Shown here one piece after another: positions 36,796 to 40,379 of a DNA stretch of 52,176 nucleotides (positions within the stretch are counted from its first letter, which is position 1; every line of letters begins with the position of its first letter). Source of the DNA: a bacterium (GTDB lineage: Bacteria > Patescibacteriota > Microgenomatia > UBA1400 > PJMF01); NCBI GenBank assembly GCA_027620445.1, contig JAQBYG010000005.1:1-52176 (forward strand), given 5' to 3'. The notes under the pieces are model-generated. The model had not been told where the DNA came from. It made no database searches and was given only the letters and a program-made list of their open reading frames with translations. Both the position numbers and the translations under genes were made by a program.

Positions 36796-37971
36796 TTAGT
36801 AGTTGACGTGTAAGTAGTACGTGCTAATTCCATCGCTTTGCTCAACTCGAACGTAGCGCAAGTTGCCACCGCCACAAGCTATGCTGCCTCGATAGAGTTT
36901 GCCAGGTTGGACCGCACGCACACGAGTGTCGCCAGAAGTACTCAGCATGTCGATTCCAGTGTGTGGAGAACCACCATAGGCACGACGGACGCGTGCATAA
37001 TATGTCATGCCATAGCCCTGAGTGATCCGAGCAGCATCATGCAGCGGCCAGTCCCAGTTTCCTCCAAAACCAAAAGGGGAGTCTGGTTCATTGTTCCAAA
37101 CAGGCGAAATTGATTTGAGATACGACGCGGGATCGCGATTGACGCCATCCTTGGCAACCTCAAAGTGCAAGTGGGTGCCAGTAGAACACACACTTGAGCC
37201 AGTAATAATGTTGGCAATCGTGTCTCCTGTATTTACCCCTCCAACTTCCGACTCGCTTCCTTTGCCGGCAATAATGGATTGTATAGCCGAAAGCTCTGCA
37301 AGTGTTTTTGCGAGCTCTGATTGATACAAGGATTCATTATTCTTGGTTTCTTTGAGGAGGAATTGTTGCTCATTTCTTTGCTTTGCCAGGACGTTTTGCT
37401 CTCGCTCCAGACGCTCCTGCACTTTTTCAATCTGCTCTTGCTTTTCTTCCTTGGTAGATTTTTGTTGATCAAAGGCTAATCGCTGTTCTTCCGCTCTTTG
37501 CATTGCAACAGCGGTTTGCATTCGCGCTTCCTTGAGATACTGCAATTGCGAAAAGAATGTGTTTGCCGATTTTGATTGTAAAAAGAGTAGATTAGAGTTG
37601 ACGCGTGTTTGCCTGTACTCCGTTTGAATACGTTCGACGAGTAGTGTGGTCAAGCGATCAAGTGATAAATTGAGTCCGCCAATGCGCTGACTCAGATCGC
37701 TGATCTGAGCTTCAAGCAAAGAAAGCTCTGCCTCAGTTTTTTGAATCTGTACTTCTTGGATTTCGACTTTGCCATTAATAATGCTAATGGTATTAGTCAG
37801 GGTGACCCGCTGCTGTTTTGTCTCTTCGAGTTTTTGTTCTAAACAACTCTGCTTGTTCTTGAGACAATCGACATCACTAGTGCTGTTACAAACAGTGGTG
37901 CACTCGATTGCATGAACAGAAGTGAGTCCCAAAGAAAGCCAGAGCAACCAGGTTAGAACGAACAATTTCAT
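36796..37971 (-). CDS. Coiled-coil M23 peptidase (EnvC/PcsB-like), permuted catalytic domain
   Basis: A 391-residue secreted murein hydrolase or activator, probably the partner of FtsEX. Signal peptide 1-21, long coiled coil about 35-245, then the M23 (LytM) domain in an unusual order: first the half with the THLHFEVAKDG motif (His267, His269), ending in DPASYL, then a linker, then the half that normally comes first (DWPLHDAARITQGYG, HTGIDM with His337 and Asp341) and the final strand with YYLH (His388), three residues before the stop. All M23 metal and catalytic residues seem present; a further His often found before the last strand is Gln378. The start is the ATG at 37971, 10 nt after ftsX; reading further upstream would lie inside ftsX. 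Confidence 0.88.
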   Translation of the reverse strand: MKLFVLTWLLWLSLGLTSVHAIECTTVCNSTSDVDCLKNKQSCLEQKLEETKQQRVTLTNTISIINGKVEIQEVQIQKTEAELSLLEAQISDLSQRIGGLNLSLDRLTTLLVERIQTEYRQTRVNSNLLFLQSKSANTFFSQLQYLKEARMQTAVAMQRAEEQRLAFDQQKSTKEEKQEQIEKVQERLEREQNVLAKQRNEQQFLLKETKNNESLYQSELAKTLAELSAIQSIIAGKGSESEVGGVNTGDTIANIITGSSVCSTGTHLHFEVAKDGVNRDPASYLKSISPVWNNEPDSPFGFGGNWDWPLHDAARITQGYGMTYYARVRRAYGGSPHTGIDMLSTSGDTRVRAVQPGKLYRGSIACGGGNLRYVRVEQSDGISTYYLHVNY

Positions 37972-37981
37972 AAAAGAGTAC

Positions 37982-38854
37982 TTACGCACGTTGCGCAAAT
38001 CTGTTGGTGGCGACAAAACTGGCGAAGCCACCGAGAATTGCGCCAATTAGTACACCAGCACCGAGTTGCAACAGCAGGAATGTCAGCGGAATCGGAAAGG
38101 TAATGATACCGGAGAAAAAAGTGCTGAGTGTTGGTGTCAGGTACAACAAGATAGCAGTGATGGCGACCCAACCGATGAGGGCACCGAGAACTCCGTAGAG
38201 AATGCCTTCGACCACAAATGGTCTGTTGATATACCAGTTTGAGGCGCCGATCAGTCGCATGATAGTTACTGAGTATTTTTTATTGGCAGCTTTGAGCGTA
38301 ATGATAATGGTGATAGTGAGGAACGAAGCGAAGCTGAGGATGCCAACGTCAACGATTCCAGCGATTCGAAGCGCTTTTGTCCATGCACTGAGTTGTTCTA
38401 CGATGTCTTGTTGAAAAATAACATCATCGACAGGGCCTTCTTTTTTGAGTGCTTCGGCAAGCTGGCTGAGTGTATCGACATTATTGGCTGAAACCTCGAT
38501 GCTAGCTGGGAGGATATCTGCCGTGACAAGTTCGAGTAGCAGCGGGGAGTCGTCATACTCTTTTGCGTAATCTTTGAGTGCTTGTTCTTGGGTAATGAGG
38601 CGGACGTCTGTCACCCCTGCAGTGTTGGCGAGAGATTTAGCAAGCGCCTCCATCTCTTGTTTTTCGGTATCGAGCTTAAAAAAAGCAATTACTTGTGGTG
38701 AGGACTCGAAGTGAGAAAGAACGAGGTGGGCGCCAGAAAGAACAAATGAGAGGCGATAGCCTACAAAAAATGTGACTGCTACCATGAGTAGCGCCGCGAG
38801 CGACTGGTATGGTGTCCGGCGCATGGTGGTGAGGGCGTTTGCGAATGCTTGCAT
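37982..38854 (-). CDS. ftsX: Cell division protein FtsX
   Basis: A 290-residue FtsX with four membrane helices: one near residues 18-42, a large extracellular loop of about 120 residues, and three at the C-terminus (near 170-190, 215-245, 255-280). FtsX transmits ATP-driven changes of FtsE to murein hydrolases through its loop. Motifs VTIMRLIGASNWYINRPFVVEGILYG are typical. It is 2 nt after ftsE and 10 nt before the coiled-coil M23 gene, the likely regulated hydrolase. Confidence 0.95.
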   Translation of the reverse strand: MQAFANALTTMRRTPYQSLAALLMVAVTFFVGYRLSFVLSGAHLVLSHFESSPQVIAFFKLDTEKQEMEALAKSLANTAGVTDVRLITQEQALKDYAKEYDDSPLLLELVTADILPASIEVSANNVDTLSQLAEALKKEGPVDDVIFQQDIVEQLSAWTKALRIAGIVDVGILSFASFLTITIIITLKAANKKYSVTIMRLIGASNWYINRPFVVEGILYGVLGALIGWVAITAILLYLTPTLSTFFSGIITFPIPLTFLLLQLGAGVLIGAILGGFASFVATNRFAQRA

Positions 38855-38856
38855 GG

Positions 38857-39741
38857 TTATTTTACTGTTTCCTCGGTAGCAGCTACTTTTTTCTTGCTAT
38901 TCTTTTTTTCTTTTTCTTGCTTTGGTTTTTCGCTTCCTGACTTACTCTCAGCCTTCTCATTCTTGACAGTGTCCACGACTGGTTTTGTAAATAACCTACC
39001 TAACCAGCTTTCTTGCTTTGGTTTTGAGTTCTCTTTCTCTGGCTTCTTTTCTTCTTTTGGTTTGACTGACCGCACTTTTGCTTTTGAATCATGAACAAGT
39101 GTGCCCGAATCGAGATTGAGAATTCTGGTCTTGTCAGATTTTGTAAGGTCGAGATTGTGTGTGGCAAACAAAATTGTTGTACCAAGTTGATTAATTTTTT
39201 TGAGGAGCTCTACGATGGCTGTTGTATTATCGGAGTCGAGGTTGCCAGTCGGCTCATCGGCGAAGATGAGGTCTGGACCAAGTGCGAGCGCGCGAGCAAT
39301 GCCGACGCGCTGCGACTCCCCGCCGGAGAGTTGTGAAGGGAAGAGGTAGGGCTTTTCTACCAAGCCAATCAGTTTGAGCAAGTCTGTCACTCGGCTTTCA
39401 ATCTCAGCTTGCGGTTGGCCTGCAATCTCGAGCGGCAGTGCAATATTTTCCCAAACGTTTAGTTCTGGCAAGAGCTTGTAGTCTTGAAAGACGACTCCGA
39501 CCTTGCGCCTGAGCTCGGTGACTTTTTTCTGCGGCATGTTTGACAATTCCTCATCAAACAACGAGATTTGCCCAGAGGTTGGGGTGTACTCGCGAATAAT
39601 CAGGCGCATGAGGGTCGTTTTACCGCTGCCAGAAGGTCCAGTTATGAACACAAACTCGCCACTATCTACCGCAAAGGAAACCTGTTTGAGACCGAAGTTA
39701 TTTGGAGAAAACTCTTTCGAGACGTCTTGAAATCGAATCAT
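38857..39741 (-). CDS. ftsE: Cell division ATP-binding protein FtsE, extended
   Basis: A 294-residue ABC ATPase. Walker [10 protein letters not shown] (about 36-44), the Q-loop VFQDYKLLP typical of FtsE, signature LSGGESQR and Walker [13 protein letters not shown] are intact. About 70 residues are added to the usual 220-230: a Lys/Glu/Pro-rich tail with a short hydrophobic SWLGRLF patch in the middle. FtsE binds FtsX on the inside of the membrane and couples ATP use to cell-wall splitting at division. Confidence 0.94.
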
Positions 39742-39791: not shown

Positions 39792-40379
39792 TTAGTTTTC
39801 TGTGGGAGCTTTACCGTCTACATCGATGACTTCGACTCGACCAACATCCATCAGCCAACCAGCTCTCTGTGCCTTAAAGGTTTCACCCCAAACTTTGACT
39901 TCCATGCCAGTTAGTTTATCGAGATCAGTGACTGAAGAAGTGAGATATACAGTTTGTGAATCACCACCCGGACGGAGCAGTTTGTGCGATCCTTCTCCAT
40001 TAATACCGCCTGCTTCGAGATAGCCAGTAGCTGGGTCGTTGAAAGCATCAGTGTCAGGACTGCCGAAGACATCTCCATTTTTGACATTGTCACCAGCGAC
40101 TTGCGACATAACTGCTGCAGATTCAGTTGGGGCAGTTGTGCTAGAACCAGCAAATAGGCGGAAGCTCCCGTAGCCTGTTGCAATGCCAGCCACAATGGCT
40201 GCAATGCTAAACCCAAGTGCAACATTTCTTTTCTTCATGGATGATTTCTCTTCTATTTGTTTATGACTAGTACCAGACTCAAGAGCTCGATTATTGCTTG
40301 CGGGTGGGAGTTCGTCAACCGCAGTTTCAATCGGTTCTATGATGGGGGTTTGTGGTGTGGTCAGATCAAGTTTATGCAT
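39792..40379 (-). CDS. Membrane-anchored protein of unknown function
   Basis: I do not recognise the family. The 195-residue reading has a polar, Pro/Glu-rich N-terminus (1-47), one membrane helix (about 53-76) and an outside part of about 115 residues. The segment GDVFGSPDTDAF is followed by an Asn-Asp-Pro-Ala-Thr-Gly run and then by a region that reads like a compact beta domain: TVYLTSSVTDLDKLTG, then MEVKVWGETFKA and VGRVEVIDVDG, similar in feel to OB-fold domains. An in-frame ATG at 40238 (residue 48) would give a short signal-anchor version. It lies between prfB and ftsE. Confidence 0.7.
   Translation of the reverse strand: MHKLDLTTPQTPIIEPIETAVDELPPASNNRALESGTSHKQIEEKSSMKKRNVALGFSIAAIVAGIATGYGSFRLFAGSSTTAPTESAAVMSQVAGDNVKNGDVFGSPDTDAFNDPATGYLEAGGINGEGSHKLLRPGGDSQTVYLTSSVTDLDKLTGMEVKVWGETFKAQRAGWLMDVGRVEVIDVDGKAPTEN

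Follow-up and report, generated by a model that had tools for sequence, protein, structure and literature searches.

M23 peptidases are a well-studied fold of peptidoglycan hydrolase, and CPR bacteria form a very large radiation with few cultured members. The closest described systems to the protein considered here are those that work under FtsEX. In FtsEX-EnvC, it is a restraining arm, about 50 residues long, that keeps the EnvC domain blocked until the coil is moved by FtsEX (PMC7668044), and PcsB and RipC are described as autoinhibited hydrolases (PMC11627006). The active-site set of M23 enzymes and the roles of its members are laid out in a review of the family that makes no mention of permutation (PMC9662197). 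Natural permutation of a peptidoglycan hydrolase has been described for the LRAT-like and YaeF-like NlpC/P60 proteins (PMC6403190; Xu et al. 2011, cited by PMC12667903), the only such case in the open-access literature that we searched. Within that same literature, we found neither a permuted M23/LytM domain nor a CPR hydrolase of FtsEX. The domain described here, which carries the M23 catalytic set in an order other than that of the family, is thus apparently new to the literature.

The window, by which we mean the whole stretch of DNA analysed, comprises 52,176 nucleotides of contig JAQBYG010000005.1 (assembly GCA_027620445.1), from a small-genome bacterium of the Patescibacteriota (CPR), Microgenomatia. 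The features that bear on the argument are as follows.

36796 to 37971, minus strand: FtsX-linked hydrolase gene with a permuted M23 domain, 391 aa; complete reading frame, with homologues likewise behind ftsX
37982 to 38854, minus strand: ftsX (PF18075 FtsX_ECD, 59.6 bits; PF02687, 39.2 bits)
38857 to 39741, minus strand: ftsE (ABC_tran, 124.4 bits), adjoining ftsX also in L001, L002 and L004
37909 to 37971, minus strand: putative signal peptide, residues ~1-21 (MKLFVLTWLLWLSLGLTSVHA), read from the sequence; homologues also have a hydrophobic N-terminus
37270 to 37875, minus strand: coiled coil, residues 33-234, from AlphaFold2 helices, EnvC as the top PDB fold and CC_PcsB matches in relatives
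37102 to 37257, minus strand: closing half of a standard M23 domain, which comes first in this protein; residues 239-290 (Pfam M23 profile 62-96 at residues 245-281)
37165 to 37173, minus strand: HLH motif with His267 (catalytic) and His269 (zinc ligand), invariant in 31 sequences
37063 to 37101, minus strand: linker of 13 residues between the halves, residues 291-303, a new connection whose length and sequence vary among homologues
36799 to 37062, minus strand: opening half of a standard M23 domain, which comes last in this protein; residues 304-391 (Pfam M23 profile 2-53 at 36802-36966)
36949 to 36963, minus strand: HTGID motif with zinc ligands His337 and Asp341, both invariant in 31 sequences
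36808 to 36819, minus strand: YYLH, in which His388 is the second catalytic histidine, invariant in 31 sequences

The hydrolase reading frame is intact, running from an ATG at 37971 to a stop at 36796-36798, and is separated from the ftsX stop by 10 nt. Behind the signal peptide the protein carries an N-terminal coiled coil of the FtsX-binding type. A fold search of the PDB with the full-length model returned the FtsEX-EnvC complex of V. cholerae as its best match (8tzl_E, 3.2e-5) and E. coli EnvC-FtsX at 0.011 (6tpi_A), with RipA and RipC ranking lower, and the Pfam family CC_PcsB is matched by 18 of 30 family members. The EnvC orthologue model NF008644 matches the coil alone, at 20.1 bits against an equivalog cut-off of 270 bits. 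Adjoining ftsE, at 39792-40379 on the minus strand, lies a membrane-anchored protein of 195 aa whose C-terminal domain (SQTVYLTSSVTDLDK...KVWGETF...AGWLMDVGRVEV) shows strong conservation. It is kept in L001, L002 and L004 and has no match in Pfam.

An earlier note on this DNA had proposed that the two halves of the M23 domain stand in reversed order, and the Pfam profile bears this out: PF01551 matches the protein in two pieces of swapped order, scoring 39 bits against a gathering cut-off of 28.7. The first half reads VNTGD..CSTGTHLHFEV..DPASYL, and the motifs HxxxD ... YxH ... HxH of the family run here as HxH ... HxxxD ... YxH, so that the protein is a variant and not a plain member of M23. 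The residues named in the note, His267 and His269 in THLHFEV, His337 and Asp341 in HTGID and His388 in YYLH, all lie where it had placed them, and between His388 and the stop there are only three residues (VNY), in line with its remark on the end of the protein. When residues 304-391 are placed before 238-303 and rescored against Pfam M23, the window domain rises from 42.6 bits in two stretches to 52.3 bits in a single stretch covering profile positions 2-96. Two divergent relatives behave in the same manner (L026, from 58.3 to 67.7 bits; L035, from 57.5 to 63.5 bits, as a single stretch of 2-90). Wrong rotations gave 41.3 and 35.1 bits, and the second M23 domain of this genome, which is of ordinary order and lies away from ftsX (C9), fell from 119.6 bits in one stretch to 102.1 in two when rotated the CPR way.

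Profiles of the family searched against the PDB tell the same story from the side of the solved structures. In native order, the family profile splits into two swapped stretches on most M23 structures (9gy1_A, 1.7e-14; EnvC 6tpi_A, 0.42), and the rotated profile aligns nearly all listed M23 structures, and EnvC, in one piece (9gy1_A, 4.7e-18; 6tpi_A, 5.9e-6), though the two profiles differ in depth, with 13 rows in the rotated and 31 in the native. Structure prediction, which the note had suggested as a check, was carried out with AlphaFold2 on 31 sequences and yields a single compact domain (pLDDT 90.5, pTM 0.88) whose strands run in the order expected after permutation. Foldseek, which is order-dependent, matched this model to no M23 structure and to nothing in the PDB below an E-value of 0.28, a blank that permutation predicts, though it is no proof of one; neither the profile nor the Foldseek searches of the PDB brought up a solved M23 domain of permuted order. 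In combination with the invariant catalytic set, the rotation, the PDB profiles and the predicted fold support a true circular permutation of M23, as the note had argued. The rotation match and the compact model rule out two separate decayed domains.

The catalytic equipment of the domain is complete. Both zinc motifs are present (HxxxD as His337/Asp341, HxH as His267/His269) together with the extra catalytic histidine on the YxH strand, His388, for which the role proposed for LytM His260 serves as the model (PMC9662197). All five residues are invariant in an alignment of 31 sequences, comprising homologues that share 33-90 % identity with the window domain, all of them in permuted order, and the retention of order and residues across so divergent a set excludes a swapped order arising by chance. 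Departures occur further out. In a distant permuted clade (L102, L103, L132, L134, L135) the HxxxD spacing is changed (for example HSGRAIDL and HQGNAIDL), and zinc binding there is possibly altered or lost; in L109 and L154, WPGGLD stands where the HxxxD motif is expected, and activity may be gone in such relatives, as in those of the clade. In L034/L129 (G063:C7), the permuted copy is broken after GIHT by an apparent frameshift, through decay or assembly error.

Based on these features, and on analogy with described FtsEX systems, the protein is very probably a septal peptidoglycan hydrolase controlled by FtsEX, in which an EnvC/PcsB-type coil is joined to a catalytically complete, permuted M23 zinc endopeptidase. 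By the same analogy with FtsEX-EnvC, PcsB and RipC, FtsEX probably switches the protein on: ATP binding and hydrolysis by FtsE would be expected to shift FtsX and the coil, which would bind FtsX, and so unmask the enzyme. The earlier note had the coil entering the domain through a loop that is internal in standard M23 domains, and suggested that this could alter the way in which FtsX opens the active site. The AlphaFold2 model agrees on the point of entry, with only four residues between helix 213-234 and strand 239-246. The last helix of the coil would therefore lead almost at once, across some four residues, to the strands bearing the HLH zinc ligand, and movement of the coil could act directly on them, though the geometry between coil and domain is unsure because the pTM of the full-length model is only 0.64.

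The resemblance of the coil to that of EnvC invites a second reading, in which the permuted domain is folded yet serves to activate and not to hydrolyse, by recruiting another hydrolase, much as the M23 domain of EnvC lacks catalytic residues and activates amidases (PMC7668044). We consider this unlikely, since the five catalytic and zinc-binding residues are invariant in the 31 divergent sequences, unlike in EnvC, and since the same slot in relatives is occupied by a CHAP domain or by a C39-like peptidase with Gln, Cys, His and Asp invariant (15 C39-like domains aligned), which argues that the slot requires a hydrolase. Less likely still is a domain swap, in which half-domains pair with the halves of a partner chain; this would be compatible with the sequence and with a model of a single chain, but that model is compact and confident, and some relatives have very little sequence joining the halves (L141: DPLPLLSNGTFNWPL). 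That a standard domain was scrambled in this genome, to leave a rearranged pseudogene or an assembly artefact, might draw on the standard-order M23 partners of FtsX in other CPR but is scarcely credible and is ruled out by the invariance across 31 sequences, the class survey given below, and the conservation of the active site and of the operon with ftsX.

The hydrolase with its permuted M23 domain is confirmed as a real and widespread variant of a known enzyme. A wider profile found at least 150 permuted matches, spread over 149 or more of the 374 class genomes sampled (E <= 5.6e-51), both figures being lower bounds because weaker matches were not listed; all but two of the 150, which lie at contig edges, are near full length, and none has an internal stop. 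With a narrow profile, 36 of 380 genomes sampled from the phylum were matched. Of four relatives in named records, three bear the label Patescibacteria, Pacebacteria or Paceibacterota, and the fourth, L004, is entered just as "bacterium". The note had proposed a search for the same order beside ftsX in other CPR. In all the permuted loci examined, L001-L004 and L006-L067, the hydrolase gene is immediately preceded by an ftsX frame of the same strand, although some of these loci represent the same genome twice. Outside the class, reading of FtsX-centred loci in 96 genomes gave 16 permuted M23 partners, 11 of standard order, 9 with CHAP and 2 C39-like, the remaining genomes having no such partner in the stretch read or a stretch left unread. 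Homologues of standard order, which the note had raised as grounds for taking this copy as a rearranged pseudogene, do therefore occur in other lineages (L104, L113, L116, L121, L139, L145, L151, L160), but this copy is not broken, and what they reveal is the source of the permutation.

Viral sequences offer a few look-alikes. Foldseek against viral models gave three matches with a probability above 0.9, among them a virion protein of a cyanophage, Synechococcus phage P60 gp33 (L172:10286-10777), at 0.94 to the permuted model. The C-termini of L172 and of its sequence relatives L173 and L174 read STGPHLDV ... HGID or FGVD ... FVHG/FLHG, a seemingly permuted M23-like order with HLD replacing HLH, and have no Pfam match. 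A tblastn search of phage and plasmid records with the domain returned low-identity matches, mostly to one M23 half and none shown to be permuted, and in a scan of IMG/VR the matches in which both motifs could be read were M23 of standard order, the others covering one half or being unscored.

Because standard-order M23 domains partner FtsX in other CPR lineages, the order must have been rearranged. A tree that combines standard domains with permuted ones after rotation requires two changes of the permuted label; constraining the permuted domains to one clade gave a likelihood 17 units above that of the free search and a p-AU of 0.81, which makes one ancient permutation plausible without proving it. 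In all sequences read, the opening point is identical, the protein ending just past the YxH strand and the coil entering the strands before HxH. Most simply, an ancient event in CPR would have duplicated the M23 domain in tandem behind the coil, with subsequent loss of the outer halves, so that the termini came to lie in the loop behind the YxH strand. The join in L141 exceeds by just a few residues what the ends of two ordinary domains set head to tail would give, which would fit duplication, fusion and trimming; among the loci read, no full tandem intermediate was seen.

The slot behind FtsX has also exchanged its enzyme. We picked 30 genomes of the class for their lack of a strong permuted match; 28 carry ftsX, and the gene that follows encodes the same coil with a C-terminal C39-like domain of papain fold (L068-L095, L099). 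PF13529 matches at 31.4 bits in L073, above its cut-off, and below it in L068. This type of FtsEX partner was not found in the open-access literature searched. In eight close pairs of permuted and C39 proteins the coils are 42-76 % identical and divergence sets in near the coil-domain junction (permuted L012 against C39-bearing L077, for example, at 75.7 % over about 238 coil residues). A quick FtsX tree, built without bootstrap, has a side of 89 rows with permuted M23 and C39 only and a side of 25 rows with mostly standard M23 and CHAP, four being permuted; over its well-supported branches the permuted label changes at least 11 times and the C39 label at least 10. Selection of the C39 rows for absence of the permuted form biases the frequencies, though not the interleaving. 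Among 38 genomes that carry the permuted form, none shows a match spanning both the coil end and a C39 domain. The sequences thus indicate that permuted M23 and C39-like peptidase have been swapped repeatedly at the coil-domain junction behind related FtsX-linked coils. That the slot is a CPR cassette of this kind, in which the permuted order is kept for a direct coupling of coil to zinc-ligand strands in place of an EnvC-like arm, is a tentative idea that we rate somewhat below even. In one genome of 1 Mb, a C39-like match lies inside an open frame of 24440 aa (G269:C7:152174, L200).

Our findings highlight what this protein shares with known systems and where it departs from them. With M23 enzymes such as LytM, lysostaphin, ShyA and TagE it shares the HxxxD and HxH motifs and the YxH histidine, and forms one match once rotated; the HxH half comes first, and the new termini lie in the loop past the YxH strand. 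Like EnvC, it has an ftsX gene partner, an EnvC-like coil and a C-terminal M23 domain, but EnvC is of standard order, is devoid of catalytic residues, and interposes its arm of ~50 residues between the coil and the domain (PMC7668044). Like PcsB (CHAP) and RipC (NlpC/P60), it would place a coil and a catalytic domain directly under FtsEX, although theirs are papain-like and joined through linkers, of 52 residues in RipC (PMC11627006). With the permuted NlpC/P60 proteins it shares a natural circular permutation in a peptidoglycan hydrolase of unrelated fold. The permuted M23 domain appears to be a major FtsEX partner over much of CPR, and standard annotation presents it just as two weak partial matches; a common enzyme here escapes order-dependent fold search. 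Closely related coils, some driving a permuted M23 and others an unrelated cysteine peptidase, represent a natural experiment on mechanotransmission by FtsEX, in which what the coil requires for switching becomes directly comparable between the two enzymes.
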